Source: Chloroflexota bacterium (GTDB taxonomy: Bacteria > Chloroflexota > Anaerolineae > Anaerolineales > Villigracilaceae). From it: 64,000 nt of DNA. The translations under genes and the position numbers were made by a program. Numbering within the stretch: the stretch's first letter is position 1; every line of letters starts with the position of its first letter. The notes under the pieces are model-generated. The model had not been told where the DNA came from, made no database searches, and saw nothing but the letters and a program-made list of their open reading frames with translations. This document shows positions 26,808-59,505 of this stretch, piece by piece. The stretch covers positions 1 through 64,000 of the forward strand of contig JAIOAQ010000015.1 in the NCBI GenBank assembly GCA_019873735.1, in the 5' to 3' direction.

Positions 26808-28676
26808 ATGCACGTCATCGGCACCGCCGGTCACGTAGATCACGGCAAAACCACCCTCATCGCCGCCCTGACCGGCATCAATCCCGACCGGCTCAAAGAA
26901 GAACAGGAACGCCAGATGACCATTGACCTCGGCTTCGCCTGGCTCACCCTGCCAGACGGAGAAGAGATCGGCATCGTGGACGTCCCCGGCCACCGCGACT
27001 TCATCGAGAACATGCTGGCCGGCGTCAGCGGCATCGACGCCGCCCTGCTCGTCATCGCCGCCGACGAAGGCGTGATGCCCCAAACCCGCGAACACCTTGC
27101 CATCCTCGACCTGCTGCAAATCCCCGCCGGGCTGATTGCCCTGACCAAAATTGACCTGATTGACGATCCCGACTGGCTCGACCTGATCGAAAGCGACATC
27201 CGCGCCGCCCTGCGCGGCACCGTCCTGCAAGACGCGCCCATCATGCGCGTCTCGGCCCACACCCGCGCCGGCCTGCCCGAACTCGTCCAGACCCTCAGCC
27301 TGCTCCTGCAAAAACGGCCGCCCCGCCCCGATCTCGGCCGCCCGCGCCTGCCGATAGACCGCGTCTTCACCCTGCCCGGCTTTGGCACCATCGTCACCGG
27401 CACCCTTACCGACGGCAGGCTGCACCTCGGCGACGAGGTCGAAATCCTGCCTGCTGGCCTGCGCGGACGCATTCGCGGCCTGCAAACCCACCGCCGCAAA
27501 GAAGAAACCGCCCTGCCAGGCTCGCGCACCGCCGTCAACCTGAGCGGCCTCGAAGCCGCCCAACTGCGCCGCGGCGACGTACTCGCCCACCCCGGCCGCT
27601 ACCAGCCCACCCGCCGCCTCGACGTGCGCTTCCGCCTGCTGGCCGACACAGCCCCCCTTCAGCACCACACCGAAGTCAAACTCTTCCTCGGCGCCGCCGA
27701 AACCATCGCCCACGTGCGCCTGCTCGGACAGGAAACCCTCGCCCCCGGCGAAACCGGCTGGCTGCAACTTGAACTGTGCGAGCCCGTCGTCGCCGTGCGC
27801 GGCGACCGCTTCATCCTGCGCCGCCCCTCCCCCGGCGAAACGCTCGGCGGCGGCACGGTTGTGGACCCGCATCCGGTGCGGCGGCACAAACGGTTCGACA
27901 CCTCCCTTCTCCGCTCGCTGGAGGCGCTCGCCCAGGGCTCCCCGGCCGAGGTCCTGCTGGAGGCCGCCCAGGCCCTCGGTCCGGCCGCGTGGAGCGAGGT
28001 GCTGGGGCGCGCCCGCCTGGAAGAGACGGTCGCCCGTTCTGCCCTGCAGACCTTGCTGGAGGCCGGTCAGGTCCTCCAACTCGAAGAATTCGTCCTCACC
28101 GCCGGTCACTGGCAAAGCCTCGCCTGCGCTGCCGAGTCGGCCGCGGCCGCCTATCACCGCGCCTACCCGCTGCGGCGGGGCATGCCGCGCGAAGAACTGC
28201 GCTCCAAACTCAAACTTCCCCCGCGCCCCTTCAACCTGATCGCCGCCCGCCTGCTGGAAGGGGGTCTGCTAACCGCCCCGGGCGCCAACTTGCTCGCCCT
28301 GCCGCAGCACCGCGTCCGCTTCTCGCCCCAGCAAGAGGCAGCCATCAGCCGCCTGATGGCCAAATTTGCCGCCGCCCCGTTCGCCCCGCCCTCGGTCAAA
28401 GAATGCCAGGCCGAGACAGGCGAAGAGGTCTTTGCCGCCCTGCTCGAAAACGGCGACCTGATCCAGGTCTCGGCCGAGGTCGTCTTCCGCCAGGCCGACT
28501 ACGAGACGATGGTGCGCAAAATCCGCCAGGCGATTATCGAAAAAGGCGCCATCACCCTGGCCGAAGTGCGCGATCTCTTCGGCACCAGCCGCAAATATGT
28601 TCAGGCCCTGCTCGAACACCTGGACGCCCAAGGCATCACCGTGCGCCTCGGCGATGTGAGAAGGCTCAAGGAGTAA
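26808..28676 (+). CDS. selB: Selenocysteine-specific translation elongation factor SelB
   Basis: IGTAGHVDHGKTTLIAALTGINPDRLKEEQERQMTIDLGFAW, VDVPGHRDFIENMLAG, ALTKIDLID; C-terminal winged-helix repeats. Confidence 0.93.
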   Translation: MHVIGTAGHVDHGKTTLIAALTGINPDRLKEEQERQMTIDLGFAWLTLPDGEEIGIVDVPGHRDFIENMLAGVSGIDAALLVIAADEGVMPQTREHLAILDLLQIPAGLIALTKIDLIDDPDWLDLIESDIRAALRGTVLQDAPIMRVSAHTRAGLPELVQTLSLLLQKRPPRPDLGRPRLPIDRVFTLPGFGTIVTGTLTDGRLHLGDEVEILPAGLRGRIRGLQTHRRKEETALPGSRTAVNLSGLEAAQLRRGDVLAHPGRYQPTRRLDVRFRLLADTAPLQHHTEVKLFLGAAETIAHVRLLGQETLAPGETGWLQLELCEPVVAVRGDRFILRRPSPGETLGGGTVVDPHPVRRHKRFDTSLLRSLEALAQGSPAEVLLEAAQALGPAAWSEVLGRARLEETVARSALQTLLEAGQVLQLEEFVLTAGHWQSLACAAESAAAAYHRAYPLRRGMPREELRSKLKLPPRPFNLIAARLLEGGLLTAPGANLLALPQHRVRFSPQQEAAISRLMAKFAAAPFAPPSVKECQAETGEEVFAALLENGDLIQVSAEVVFRQADYETMVRKIRQAIIEKGAITLAEVRDLFGTSRKYVQALLEHLDAQGITVRLGDVRRLKE

Positions 28677-31900: not shown

Positions 31901-31929
31901 TTGCCAAAGAAGTCAGCCTGGGCTATAAT
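31901..31929 (+). promoter_or_regulatory. Sigma70-type promoter of tRNA-Val
   Basis: TTGCCA - 17 nt - TATAAT, 12 nt before the tRNA. Confidence 0.7.
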
Positions 31930-31941
31930 CACGCCCACCTG

Positions 31942-32018
31942 GGGCGCGTAGCTCAGTCGGTCAGAGCGCATCACTCACATTGATGAGGTCGGGGGTTCGA
32001 GCCCCTCCGCGCCCACCA
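31942..32018 (+). tRNA. tRNA-Val (anticodon CAC), CCA encoded
   Basis: GGGCGCG/CGCGCCC acceptor; CATCA-CTCACAT-TGATG anticodon arm; GGGGG-TTCGAGC-CCCTC T-arm; ACCA end. Confidence 0.93.
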
Positions 32019-32282
32019 CAACGAGACCTTGGCGGGTCTCGTTTCGTCTTCAAAAGCGGGAGCTTCGAGTGCCCGGCGGGCGATCCGCGCCCACTAAAAC
32101 GAGACCTTGACGGGTCTCGTTTGGTTTTCAAAAGCGGGGGCTTCGAGTGCCCTGCGGGCGATCCGCGCCCACTACAACGAGACCTTGGCGGGTCTCGTTT
32201 CGTTTTCAAAAGCGGGGGCTTCGAGTGCCCTGCGGGCGATCCGCGCCCACTACAACGAGACCTTGACGGGTCTCGTTTCGTT
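32007..32282 (+). repeat. Tandem array of tRNA-Val 3'-end remnant plus terminator hairpin (78-bp period)
   Basis: ccgcgcccac at 32007 (in the tRNA), 32085, 32163 and 32241 (exact 78-bp spacing); acgagacc...ggtctcgt hairpins at 32021, 32099, 32177 and 32255. Confidence 0.9.
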
Positions 32283-32381
32283 TTAACTCAAGGCAAAAAT
32301 TCACCGCCGAGACGCCGAGAGCGCAGAGTATTTTTCATAAAAGGGCGACTCACGCCGGGGCGGAGCGATGTAGGGCAAGAT

Positions 32382-32409
32382 GTAGGACAAGTCTTAAGAC
32401 TTGTCCTAC
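32382..32409. repeat. 28-bp perfect palindrome
   Basis: gtaggacaagtcttaagacttgtcctac. Confidence 0.95.
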
Positions 32410-32477
32410 TGTGTACGCGCTCCCCAGACCCCCAAAGCGATTCAGAGTTTCAGAGTCCAGAGAATCAGAGTTCAGAT

Positions 32478-35144
32478 TTAACGATGGGAGAGACAACCAC
32501 CCGAAAACCCAGACTCCCGTAGAGGCTGTCCGGATCGCACCAGCTGCGAAGGGCACAGCGCGCCCCCGCGACTGCTGACGAACGAACCGCCGCGTACCAC
32601 ACGGTAGCCAGAAGCGGCTTCGTCTTCGCGGCCGTCGTCCACCCGGTAGGGATAAGATTTGTAAAGCGAATGGGTCCACTCCCAGACGTTGCCGGCCATG
32701 TCGGCGCAGCCGTAGGGCGAATCACCCTGCGGGGAGAATTGCCCCACCGGGGAAGTACCGCCGAGGCCGGTTTCAGCCACGTTGCACCTTTGGGGATCGA
32801 AGTCATCTCCCCAGGGGTACACACGTCCATCTGTGCCGCGGGCAGCCTTTTCCCATTCGGCTTCGGTCGGCAGGCGGTAGGCTTTGCCGCTTTTTTCGCT
32901 CAGCCACCGGCAGTAGGCCTGCGCATCCTCCCAGGAAACGTTCACCACCGGGTGGTCGCCCTTTTCGGGCGGGTACTGGTCGCCATCCCAATCCCGCGGC
33001 GGCCGCTGGCCAGTTTCCTTTACAAACAATTGATACTCCCGGTTTGTCACCGGGTATTTGCCGATGAAGTATTCCGGCAGGTCCACTTCGTGCGCCGGCT
33101 GTTCGTCCTTGAGCCAGCACTGCCATTCTTTGTCGTTGTTGACCTCCTTCAAAACCCGCTGCGCCTGTTCCGGGGTGGTGCCCATCAAGAATTTGCCGGC
33201 CGGGATGCGCACCATCTGCGGCTCGAAGGGCTGGCGCGCCGCTTCGGCGGAGGCAGCCTGCGGCGCTTCGGCGCGGCTGGTGAGAGTGAAGTACAGGCGC
33301 AGTTCGTCGGGAAGCAGGCCGGTGAAATTAGCATCGGGCATCTGCGGCGGGTGCAGGGTGAGCATGCGGCGCACAGCCTGACGGGCGGCATAGGGCGCCA
33401 GGGCGGGCGGCAGTTCGGCCCGGGGCGCAGTTCCCTTCTCCGCCCCGCGCCGGCCGGGCAAGGGTTCGCCTTCGGTTGCTTCTCCGGCGCGGCTTTCGAG
33501 GCGGTAATACTCTTCCAGTTCCTGCAGATAGCGCGGCGTTTCCTTGAGCAGCGCATACAGTTCGGGATAGACGGTCTGGATGGCCACCACCTTCGCCAGG
33601 CGGATGGGCTTGATGCGCCCCTGGAGTTTTTTCTCGCGCTTCTCGGCCAGCCTCCAGAGCATCAGAAAGACGTTCACGGTGCGCTTGATCTGGCGCGGGT
33701 TGTCGCCCAGGCCCTCGGCAAAGACTCGCGGACATTCTGGATGCGGCCACTCGGTGCTCAAGCCGCTGACGAAGTCGTCCATATCGTCGCGCTCCACCGG
33801 CGGAATCCAGAAGGGCAACTGGATGATTTTCTCCAGGTAGCGCGCCCCGTCAATGACGAAGCGCGGCGCCTTGTCCTCCTCGCTGTTCTGTTTCAACTCG
33901 CGATACTTGATCTCGATGCCGCGGGCAATGACCTCCTGATCGAGGCCGAGCAGGAAGACACAGCCGGGCACATCCACGAACAATTTGATGGCCTCCAGCA
34001 CTTCGATGGCCTTCTCCGGCAGGCAGCGGTCGAGGTCATCCACAAAGACCACCAGGCGGCCGTTTTGGGCACAGATGCGGTCTTTGACCAGGCGGGCAAA
34101 CTGCTGCTGGAACTGCTCGAGGAAGCGCACCTGCTCGATGTGAATCTTCGTCCGCTCGCGCTGGATGGCCTCGAAGGCGGTCTCGCTCAGATTCTCGGCC
34201 CCGGCCTTTTGCAATTCTTCGACCAGTTTGTCCAGCGCCGCCCCGCCGGGGAGAAAAGGCAGGCCGATTTGCACCGCCCCCTGGGCCGCTTTGGCGCCCA
34301 GTTTCGCCAGATCAATCGTCACCCCGCCGGATTTCTCCAGGTCGAGGGCGCGGTAGAGCAGGGCGGTCAGTTTGCTGAGTTCGTCATCGGTGAGTTTCCC
34401 GTCAAGATGCAGCGCCGAAAGGATGCTCAACGGGAAGGCGCGCCAGAGCGTCTCTTCCTTATCGTACTTCCAGGCGTCGAACCAGGCCACGGTGAACGTC
34501 GGCGGCAAGCCTTTTCTCACCATCCGCATCAGCGAGGTCTTGCCCGACCCCCAGGTGCCGAATACGCCGATGGTCAGCGGCGTGATGGCCGTTTTGCACA
34601 CATCCACCAGCGTTTCGACGTAGGGGGTAAAGTCGAGCAAGTCTTTGTCGGTGGGCAGACTCACAGAAGAAGCAGCAACCGATGGCTTGGAAACGGATTG
34701 AGTGGGCGGCGGTAAAATTTTCAACGCATCTGCCCGCAGATACAACGATTGCAAGAGTTTCTCTTGAGCGTCGGGCAGGAAATAATCCGCCCATTGCCAT
34801 TGCTGGAATATTAACGGCAGTTCGCAATCGTCCAAGCGCAGGGGGATGATGTAAATCGTCCCTTCAGGTTTTTCTTCAGCAAAGGTCAAGGCACGCTTGA
34901 ATTCCTTTTGGATATAGCCCTCTTTGTCAACCGATTCTTTTGAAAGACACACAAGAATTGCATCGGCGTTGCGCAAGGCTTTGAAAATTTCTACTTCCCA
35001 ATCCATTCCAGGAAGGAGATTGACTTCATCCAGCCAGGGTTCGATCCATGGCTGAGACTTAAGCAATTTGTACAAATCCCTTATGAGGGGTTTATCTTCT
35101 TTTGCATGGCAGAGAAAAACTCGAAGAGGTCGCGGTTTGGGCAT
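32478..35144 (-). CDS. TIR - KAP P-loop NTPase - FGE-sulfatase/C-type-lectin-fold fusion; C-terminus apparently frameshifted
   Basis: TIR: VFLCHAKEDKPLIRDLYKLL...LVCLSKESV; KAP: IGVFGTWGSGKTSLMRMV...VVFVDDLDRCLPEKAIEVLEAIKLFV; FGE: VRIPAGKFLMGT...YPVTNREYQLFV...VVNVSWEDAQAYCRWLS...YRLPTEAEWEKAARG...YGCADMAGNVWEWT...YRVVRGGS. Canonical ARCALRSW..GFRVVVSP tail lies in another frame, ending at 32465. Confidence 0.88.
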   Translation of the reverse strand: MPKPRPLRVFLCHAKEDKPLIRDLYKLLKSQPWIEPWLDEVNLLPGMDWEVEIFKALRNADAILVCLSKESVDKEGYIQKEFKRALTFAEEKPEGTIYIIPLRLDDCELPLIFQQWQWADYFLPDAQEKLLQSLYLRADALKILPPPTQSVSKPSVAASSVSLPTDKDLLDFTPYVETLVDVCKTAITPLTIGVFGTWGSGKTSLMRMVRKGLPPTFTVAWFDAWKYDKEETLWRAFPLSILSALHLDGKLTDDELSKLTALLYRALDLEKSGGVTIDLAKLGAKAAQGAVQIGLPFLPGGAALDKLVEELQKAGAENLSETAFEAIQRERTKIHIEQVRFLEQFQQQFARLVKDRICAQNGRLVVFVDDLDRCLPEKAIEVLEAIKLFVDVPGCVFLLGLDQEVIARGIEIKYRELKQNSEEDKAPRFVIDGARYLEKIIQLPFWIPPVERDDMDDFVSGLSTEWPHPECPRVFAEGLGDNPRQIKRTVNVFLMLWRLAEKREKKLQGRIKPIRLAKVVAIQTVYPELYALLKETPRYLQELEEYYRLESRAGEATEGEPLPGRRGAEKGTAPRAELPPALAPYAARQAVRRMLTLHPPQMPDANFTGLLPDELRLYFTLTSRAEAPQAASAEAARQPFEPQMVRIPAGKFLMGTTPEQAQRVLKEVNNDKEWQCWLKDEQPAHEVDLPEYFIGKYPVTNREYQLFVKETGQRPPRDWDGDQYPPEKGDHPVVNVSWEDAQAYCRWLSEKSGKAYRLPTEAEWEKAARGTDGRVYPWGDDFDPQRCNVAETGLGGTSPVGQFSPQGDSPYGCADMAGNVWEWTHSLYKSYPYRVDDGREDEAASGYRVVRGGSFVSSRGGALCPSQLVRSGQPLRESGFSGGCLSHR

Positions 35145-58250: not shown

Positions 58251-59195
58251 ATGGATACACCTGTCAATCCAGAAACCCGCTTCTTACACGCCGTAGAAAT
58301 GGGGGTAGGCACCTGGCAATGGGGTGACCGCGTGGTATGGAATTATGGACACAACTACGACGAGGATGCTATCCGGGCCGCCTTCAACGCCTCTCTTGAA
58401 CAGGGTGTGCGTCTGTTTGATACGGCTGAGGTTTACGGCAACGGCCAATCGGAACGCATTCTGGGGACGCTGATCAAAGAGACCAATCAGCCGGTGCTGG
58501 TTGCCACGAAGTTTATGCCATTTCCCTGGCGGCTGGAACGCAAGTCTTTACTCCGCGCCTTAAAAAACAGCCTCGACCGCCTGGGCCTGGAAAGCGTAGA
58601 CCTGTATCAAATGCATTGGCCTTTTCCGCCCATCTCCATTGAGAAGTGGATGAGCGTCATGGCGGAGGCGGTACAACAAGGCTGGACGCGCACCGTTGGG
58701 GTATCCAACTACAGTCACACCCAAATGATGCGCGCCTACGCTGCCCTTGAGCGGCGCGGCCTGCCGCTGGCATCCAATCAGGTCGAATACAATTTGTTGA
58801 ATCGGGAAATCGAAAAGAACGGCCTGCTCAGGCGCTGCCAGGAACTGGGCATTCGGGTGATTGCCTACAGCCCTCTGGCCATGGGGCTGTTAACCGGCAA
58901 GTACGGCCCCGAAAACCCGCCGCCCGGGCTGCGCGGACGCAAATATGCCGGCCTGCTCAGACGCCTGAAGCCGCTGATAAACCTGATGACCGAAATCGGG
59001 CGCGAACACGAGAGCAAGTCGTGTGCCCAAGTGGCCCTAAACTGGTGCATCTGCAAAGGCACCTTGCCCATTCCGGGCGCAAAGAACGCCGAGCAAGCCC
59101 TGATGAATGCCGGAGCATTGGGCTGGCGGCTGAGCGAAGAAGAAATTGCCCGGTTGGATAGCGCCAGTGAAAGTGTGGTGAGAAGCGCGTCTTGA
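58251..59195 (+). CDS. Aldo/keto reductase
   Basis: LFDTAEVYGNGQSERILG, VLVATKFMPFPWRL, DLYQMHWP, VGVSNYSHTQM, ASNQVEYNLLNR, VIAYSPLAMGLLTGKY. Confidence 0.93.
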   Translation: MDTPVNPETRFLHAVEMGVGTWQWGDRVVWNYGHNYDEDAIRAAFNASLEQGVRLFDTAEVYGNGQSERILGTLIKETNQPVLVATKFMPFPWRLERKSLLRALKNSLDRLGLESVDLYQMHWPFPPISIEKWMSVMAEAVQQGWTRTVGVSNYSHTQMMRAYAALERRGLPLASNQVEYNLLNREIEKNGLLRRCQELGIRVIAYSPLAMGLLTGKYGPENPPPGLRGRKYAGLLRRLKPLINLMTEIGREHESKSCAQVALNWCICKGTLPIPGAKNAEQALMNAGALGWRLSEEEIARLDSASESVVRSAS

Positions 59196-59431
59196 ACCCA
59201 TTTATCCCGAGCGGGGACTTCCTTTGATAAAAAAAAGCCCCCGTTTTCACAGGGGCTCGCTGGGTGCCCAGTGGGTCTTGAACCCATCTATCCCCCGCGG
59301 GGACTTCCTTTGATAAAAAAGCCCCTGTTTTCACAGGGGCTCGCTGGGTGCCCAGTGGGTCTTGAACCCATCTATCCCCCGCGGGGACTTCCTTCGATAA
59401 AAAAAGCCCCTGTTTTCACAGGGGCTCGCTG
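59188..59431 (-). repeat. Tandem array of tRNA-His 3'-end remnant plus terminator (84-86-bp period)
   Basis: gtcttgaaccca at 59189, 59275, 59359 and (in the tRNA) 59444; hairpin agcccc..ttttcac..ggggct plus A-run at 59236, 59320 and 59405 (terminator on minus strand). Confidence 0.92.
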
Positions 59432-59505
59432 GGTGCCCAGTGGGTCTTGAACCCACATCCTTCTGATCCACAGTCAGACGTTCCGCCAATTGAACTATGG
59501 GCACC
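59432..59505 (-). tRNA. tRNA-His (anticodon GTG) with G-1; complete CCA not encoded
   Basis: GGTGCCCA/TGGGCACC acceptor, TCTGA-CTGTGGA-TCAGA anticodon arm, GTGGG-TTCAAGA-CCCAC T-arm. Confidence 0.93.

Follow-up and report, generated by a model that had tools for sequence, protein, structure and literature searches.

The closest described counterparts of the arrays considered here are the tRNA-linked repeats (TLRs) of Escherichia coli, which include the 178-bp repeats of tyrT/RtT (Egan and Landy 1978; Rudd 1999; reviewed in PMC8144298). Although TLRs in E. coli tRNA operons have been known since 1978, no function has been assigned to them (PMC8144298). The tail of RrB, a TLR linked to 5S, was proposed to be a processing signal for RNase E (PMC8144298); RrB has been shown to be transcribed and processed to a 3' end at its tail. 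RttR is listed in a biofilm screen at 97 +/- 9%, i.e., without a marked effect (PMC4606813). By direct comparison of the K-12 units behind argV, argZ, argQ, lysT, lysW, lysY, lysZ and lysV as well as those of tyrTV, it is evident that all of them carry a hairpin module right ahead of a tail identical to that of their own gene. The tyr unit copies CTTCGA..AGGTTCGA, the insert following TTCGA.

A comparable arrangement is found in the window, i.e., the whole stretch of 64,000 nucleotides that was analysed, where tRNA-Val(CAC) is followed by three extra copies of its own 3' end, each with an inserted hairpin and a terminator-like hairpin. After a partial last unit the repeat pattern is abandoned and the array runs out into unique sequence. 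The features are as follows, the last one being a second array in the same window:

31901..31929, + strand: sigma-70-type promoter TTGCCA-17-TATAAT of tRNA-Val(CAC) (consensus scan, 11/12 matches)
31942..32018, + strand: tRNA-Val(CAC) with encoded CCA (ARAGORN and Rfam in agreement)
32019..32096, + strand: Val repeat unit 1, 78 bp (sequence and Tandem Repeats Finder, TRF)
about 32020-32043, + strand: trailer/terminator-like hairpin of unit 1
32070-32083, + strand: inserted hairpin of unit 1, TGCCCGGCGGGCGA
32084-32094, + strand: acceptor tail of unit 1, TCCGCGCCCAC
32097..32174, + strand: Val repeat unit 2, 78 bp (sequence and TRF)
32148-32161, + strand: inserted hairpin of unit 2, TGCCCTGCGGGCGA
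32162-32172, + strand: tail of unit 2
32175..32252, + strand: Val repeat unit 3, 78 bp (sequence, TRF, terminator scan)
32176-32199, + strand: terminator-like hairpin of unit 3
32226-32239, + strand: inserted hairpin of unit 3
32240-32250, + strand: tail of unit 3
32253..32284, + strand: partial last Val unit, consisting of trailer and terminator-like hairpin (32254-32277) (sequence, terminator scan)
59189..59504, - strand: tRNA-His(GTG) with an array of the same class

The exact period of 78 bp given in an earlier note was borne out by the copy positions as well as by TRF (32006-32284, period 78, 3.6 copies, 94% matches, score 502). The acceptor strand ccgcgcccac was found where that note had placed it (32007, 32085, 32163 and 32241), the window containing no further copy, and the described alternation of the terminator loops (ttggcg/ttgacg/ttggcg/ttgacg) can be seen in the sequence. 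The proposed promoter also held, as sites scoring as high as its 11 of 12 matches occurred on average 0.1 times in shuffles; similar TTGCC/TATAAT boxes lie upstream of tRNA-Val(CAC) at locus L032 of a related genome. In each unit the trailer with its terminator-like hairpin is followed by AAAAGCGGGGGC, TTCGAG, TGCCC-TGC-GGGCGA and TCCGCGCCCAC, the counterpart in the tRNA gene being CGGGGG TTCGAG CCCC TCCGCGCCCAC, and the internal part of unit 1 ahead of the inserted hairpin is a copy of the variable loop/T-stem 5' strand and the T-loop. The earlier reading of a diverged T-arm with an extra tgcgggcgat is therefore wrong: these ten letters are the 3' half of the hairpin TGCCC-(T/G)GC-GGGCGA between the copied TTCGAG and TCCGCGCCCAC, and the T-arm copy is interrupted by this inserted hairpin, which is the feature defining the class.

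In an Rfam scan of the window no family except tRNA reached the gathering score, and a plasmid search using a gene flanking the array gave no match. On the + strand an ORF of 180 aa (31980-32522) spans the Val array with a periodicity of 26 aa, which is explained by 78 being 26 x 3, and a protein is unlikely. In the E. coli tyrT repeat, tpr is a protein-coding repeat; for the Val array this possibility was rejected, the periods of other arrays being, e.g., 70, 79, 85, 88 and 89. A dispersed repeat, ttcaccgccgagacgccgagagcgcagag, lies immediately past the array (32294-32330), with about ten more matches in the same genome (C37, C29, C7, C52, C14, C33 and C3) and in relatives. The neighbouring ORF of 888 aa (32478-35144, - strand), which judging by its sequence seems to have a TIR-like N-terminus, a P-loop NTPase and a C-terminus resembling formylglycine-generating enzyme, is a possible candidate for a defence or signalling protein. 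A SelB-like elongation factor is encoded at 26808-28676 (+ strand) and, together with a tRNA-SeC elsewhere in the genome (L030), suggests a selenocysteine system.

The Val array had been taken to be independent of the His array, but both belong to one class that is represented by four arrays in the genome (3.06 Mb in 71 contigs, 42 tRNA matches): a scan of the downstream flanks revealed tail arrays at Val-CAC, His-GTG, Lys-TTT and Ser-GCT, i.e., at four of about 42 tRNA genes. The His array has a period of 84-85 with two full extra copies plus a partial one, and its T-arm looks intact because the hairpin CCCC-GCG-GGGG is inserted ahead of the copied T-stem. The Lys-TTT and Ser-GCT arrays have the common form, in which a copy of the variable loop and the T-stem 5' strand is followed by the hairpin CCCCC-ATTCA-GGGGGTGGTA or CCCCC-GA-GGGGGATGATA and then by the T-loop and tail of the respective tRNA.

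Searches of relatives by BLAST with array loci, by pattern scans and with a covariance model (R1) showed that the class is present in many genera. R1 matched 24 of the 41 genomes of the window's family and 17 of 301 genomes in the phylum, all of the latter in the window's family or in a second family of its order. Species genomes of GTDB, when scanned with a pattern, yielded at least 118 stretches, which do not mark the limits of the distribution; among the matches listed nearly all are from Anaerolineales/Chloroflexota, with Anaerolinea thermolimosa, Bellilinea caldifistulae, Longilinea and Levilinea being represented. From the fetched loci 119 arrays at 22 tRNA species were collected, almost all from Anaerolineales and with 1-8 tail copies found, a sample that was partly picked by the hairpin motif and thus gives no frequency. 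Presence is patchy, in that most relatives lack an array at Val-CAC yet have the same class at other tRNAs. The suggestion that the Val array is an older one is plausible, since the genome carrying L032, which belongs to another genus, has one unit at Val-CAC with a hairpin (GCC-TTC-GGC) at the same site. In the open-access literature no description of Chloroflexota arrays of this kind was found.

Since the genome containing the window is a draft of 71 contigs, an artefact of short-read metagenome assembly has to be considered. Its probability is negligible, given that the same class is found in the cultivated isolates B. caldifistulae GOMI-1 (6 units at Arg-TCG) and A. thermolimosa IMO-1 (about 8 units at Val-CAC) as well as in two single-contig assemblies (G008 and G248), and that units of one array show point differences and the array gives way to unique sequence at its end.

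The inserted hairpin recurs in most arrays as YCCCC-ATTGA-GGGGATGRTA, located between positions 53 and 54 of the tRNA and immediately ahead of a tail that fully matches the local tRNA, with positions as given by our own alignment of units to gene. Other insertion sites lie between positions 55 and 56 in Pro, between 48 and 49 in His and some Arg arrays, and near 45 and 46 in one Val-TAC array. In the window's Val array and in L032 the insert follows TTCGAG, and the Val hairpin of the window counts as a variant of the class module only by its position and form. All 15 inserts taken from arrays that had been found without the hairpin form a perfect stem of 3-5 bp, with a combined shuffle p of about 1e-6 that serves as a guide only, the inserts having been delimited by hand and two of the 15 coming from the same Val array. 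Furthermore, the arms covary (CCCC/GGGG, CTCC/GGAG, CCTC/GAGG, with T-A, C-G or A-T as the outer pair), and even the Ser-GGA arrays of two genomes of one genus differ in this way (CCCC/GGGG vs CTCC/GGAG). A mimic of the T-arm of the form GGGGAT...ATCCC was rejected, because Glu and Asn tails do not fit. Within one Glu-CTC unit (L275, about 2452-2540, - strand) the 20-nt module itself occurs five times in tandem, and some Gly-TCC/Val-TAC units (L252, L287, L358, L277) have a second hairpin further downstream, where the tail copy corresponds to the T-stem/acceptor strand.

The occurrence of a nearly identical 20-nt hairpin at three differing sites (53/54, 55/56 and 48/49), and of tandem hairpin copies in L275, would be in line with a mobile palindrome of the REP/MITE type inserting into T-arm copies, and like REP and other palindromic repeats the module is a short conserved palindrome in many copies. 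Such an origin is highly improbable, because the array hairpin is, unlike those repeats, confined to tRNA tail copies: in a hairpin-only search of 60 genomes of the family, carried out without the T-loop, 25 of the 30 fetched loci had a called tRNA immediately before the hairpin, tRNA-like tails came after it in four others, and no dispersed copies were seen in unrelated intergenic regions.

With respect to sequence conservation, units with another unit behind them have a mean identity to the gene of 95% in the tail (20 nt, often 100%) and of 82% in the trailer, and several units whose trailers are at only 53-67% have kept tails of 90-100%, mostly 100%; these tail figures are to be read in the light of the detection threshold of at least 14/18 tail matches. 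ABAB alternation of units was observed in the window's Val array as well as in an Asn (L219) and a Ser array (L297), and together with the partial last units it suggests unequal exchange of dimers. These alternating dimers, the high identity between units of one array, the patchy presence and the variable copy number would all be expected if the arrays were a functionless by-product of tandem tRNA 3'-end duplication and unequal exchange, with similarity kept up by recombination; E. coli genomes, too, differ in this respect, with anywhere from 1 to 9 RtT-like places each. Such a neutral origin is conceivable but rather doubtful. The tails are intact even where gene and unit trailers are no longer alike, and since the tail is flanked by hairpin and trailer sequences that differ from what flanks it in the gene, conversion by the gene would be limited to about 20 bp, so that purifying selection is the simpler reading. 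The compensatory changes in the hairpin arms and the return of the same hairpin at 22 tRNA species also speak against neutrality. Near-100% tails beside diverged trailers and covarying hairpin arms therefore make it likely, as far as sequence comparison goes, that tails and hairpins are under selection.

Selection had originally been proposed for acceptor strand and terminator; the contrast between tails near 100% and trailers at 53-67% upholds the former part, whereas the terminator turned out not to be obligatory. In the window's Val units the terminator-like hairpins have stems of 10 bp with weak T-runs, and two pass the terminator scan. A terminator precedes the first unit in at least 68 of the 119 arrays, according to a simple detector that misses some, and terminators are rebuilt upon sequence divergence. 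These observations would fit units that are only serial intrinsic terminators, which insulate the tRNA operon and carry the tail along as a passenger. Nevertheless this is unlikely, as many arrays have terminator-free units, e.g., Arg-GCG (7 units) and Pro-TGG (4 units), and the units of the Arg-TCG and Arg-GCG arrays of B. caldifistulae are likewise free of terminators, so that termination is not the general role; moreover, hairpin insert and tail are left unexplained, and their conservation in terminator-free arrays is already largely observed. By this comparison, the constant parts of the arrays are the hairpin and the tail, with the terminator being optional.

Partial duplication of the tRNA 3' end is also the usual trace of integration (PMC9897764), and integrases are known to target the T-loop, as in mycobacteriophage Ms6 (PMC1762012). 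The arrays might accordingly have been left behind by integrative elements directed at the T-loop or 3' end of tRNA genes, or act as decoys for them, and a hairpin-free tail copy at a distance of 162 bp in the Lys locus L089 does resemble an integration trace. This explanation is very unlikely: unlike integration-derived tRNA fragments, the arrays consist of short regular tandem units with a hairpin insert, and in nine genomes no integrase genes adjoin them. Elements would not fit into units of 52-95 bp, the hairpin position varies among tRNAs, and a search of IMG/VR gave no contig with the array motif.

With a probability of roughly 0.55, the Val array would thus be a TLR array that arose by tandem duplication, is co-transcribed with its tRNA and partially terminated, and has its tails processed into short RNAs. 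According to this model, the 3' part of the tRNA, from variable loop to trailer/terminator, was duplicated in tandem, each extra copy gained a short hairpin within its T-arm copy or next to it, immediately before the tail of its own tRNA, and copy number may have shifted by unequal exchange. The array would be transcribed from the tRNA promoter, and each terminator, in those units that have one, would stop part of the transcripts and trim read-through. The tails may then be read by the tRNA 3'-processing enzymes, read-through RNA being cut to short RNAs that end like the tRNA, and the hairpin would prevent a T-arm from forming again in the copies, besides possibly protecting or defining the short RNA. 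In the minimum free energy fold of the whole Val transcript the tRNA 5' strand is paired with a distal tail, suggesting that the tails can compete at equilibrium; such predicted pairing would hinder rather than help folding of the tRNA, and co-transcriptional folding should favour the first tail.

With over a hundred arrays at many tRNA species in one Chloroflexota order, comparative material beyond E. coli alone is now at hand, in which the constant parts (tail, hairpin) can be separated from the optional ones (terminator, copy number), and since cultivated strains are among the carriers, transcription is testable. The arrays also call for caution in annotation, as the sequence behind a tRNA gene can be mistaken for a tRNA fragment or for a CRISPR-like repeat.

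The E. coli TLRs and the Anaerolineales arrays have in common that one to several repeats of varying copy number directly follow a tRNA gene, that the 3' end of the repeat is the 3' end of its own upstream gene, and that one hairpin module is found right before the tail in the repeats of different tRNAs. In the E. coli tyr unit, as in the window's Val array, the T-stem/T-loop side is copied and the insert is on the same T-loop side; behind the insert, the Val units of the window match the tail of the gene exactly over 11 nt (TCCGCGCCCAC), a shorter run than the 18-19 bp of E. coli. In contrast, the sequence of the hairpin module is different, and the units are mostly 52-95 bp long as compared to 178 bp for tyr and 98-156 bp for lys and arg in E. 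coli. In a further departure from the E. coli TLRs, the variable loop is as a rule part of the copy, an intrinsic terminator is frequent, and the usual site of the insert is 53/54. In E. coli, 5S rRNA is another gene followed by TLRs, whereas the Anaerolineales survey covered tRNA genes. An Rfam scan of ten related loci gave tRNA and sub-threshold matches with RtT absent, the modules differing from those of E. coli; the sub-threshold sX4 matches were dismissed, as they overlap the tRNA-Ser genes themselves. Because the design is the same and the module sequence another one, what the sequences present is here called a previously undescribed, lineage-specific variant of the TLR type with its own module, by which likeness of design and not descent is claimed. 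More tentatively, and with considerable doubt, TLRs might be a general design of bacteria at which different phyla arrived independently, whose arrays make short RNAs ending like a tRNA, with a regulatory or processing-sponge role; if so, the combination of a lineage-specific hairpin with the 3' end of the host tRNA would amount to built-in genes for tRNA 3' fragments.
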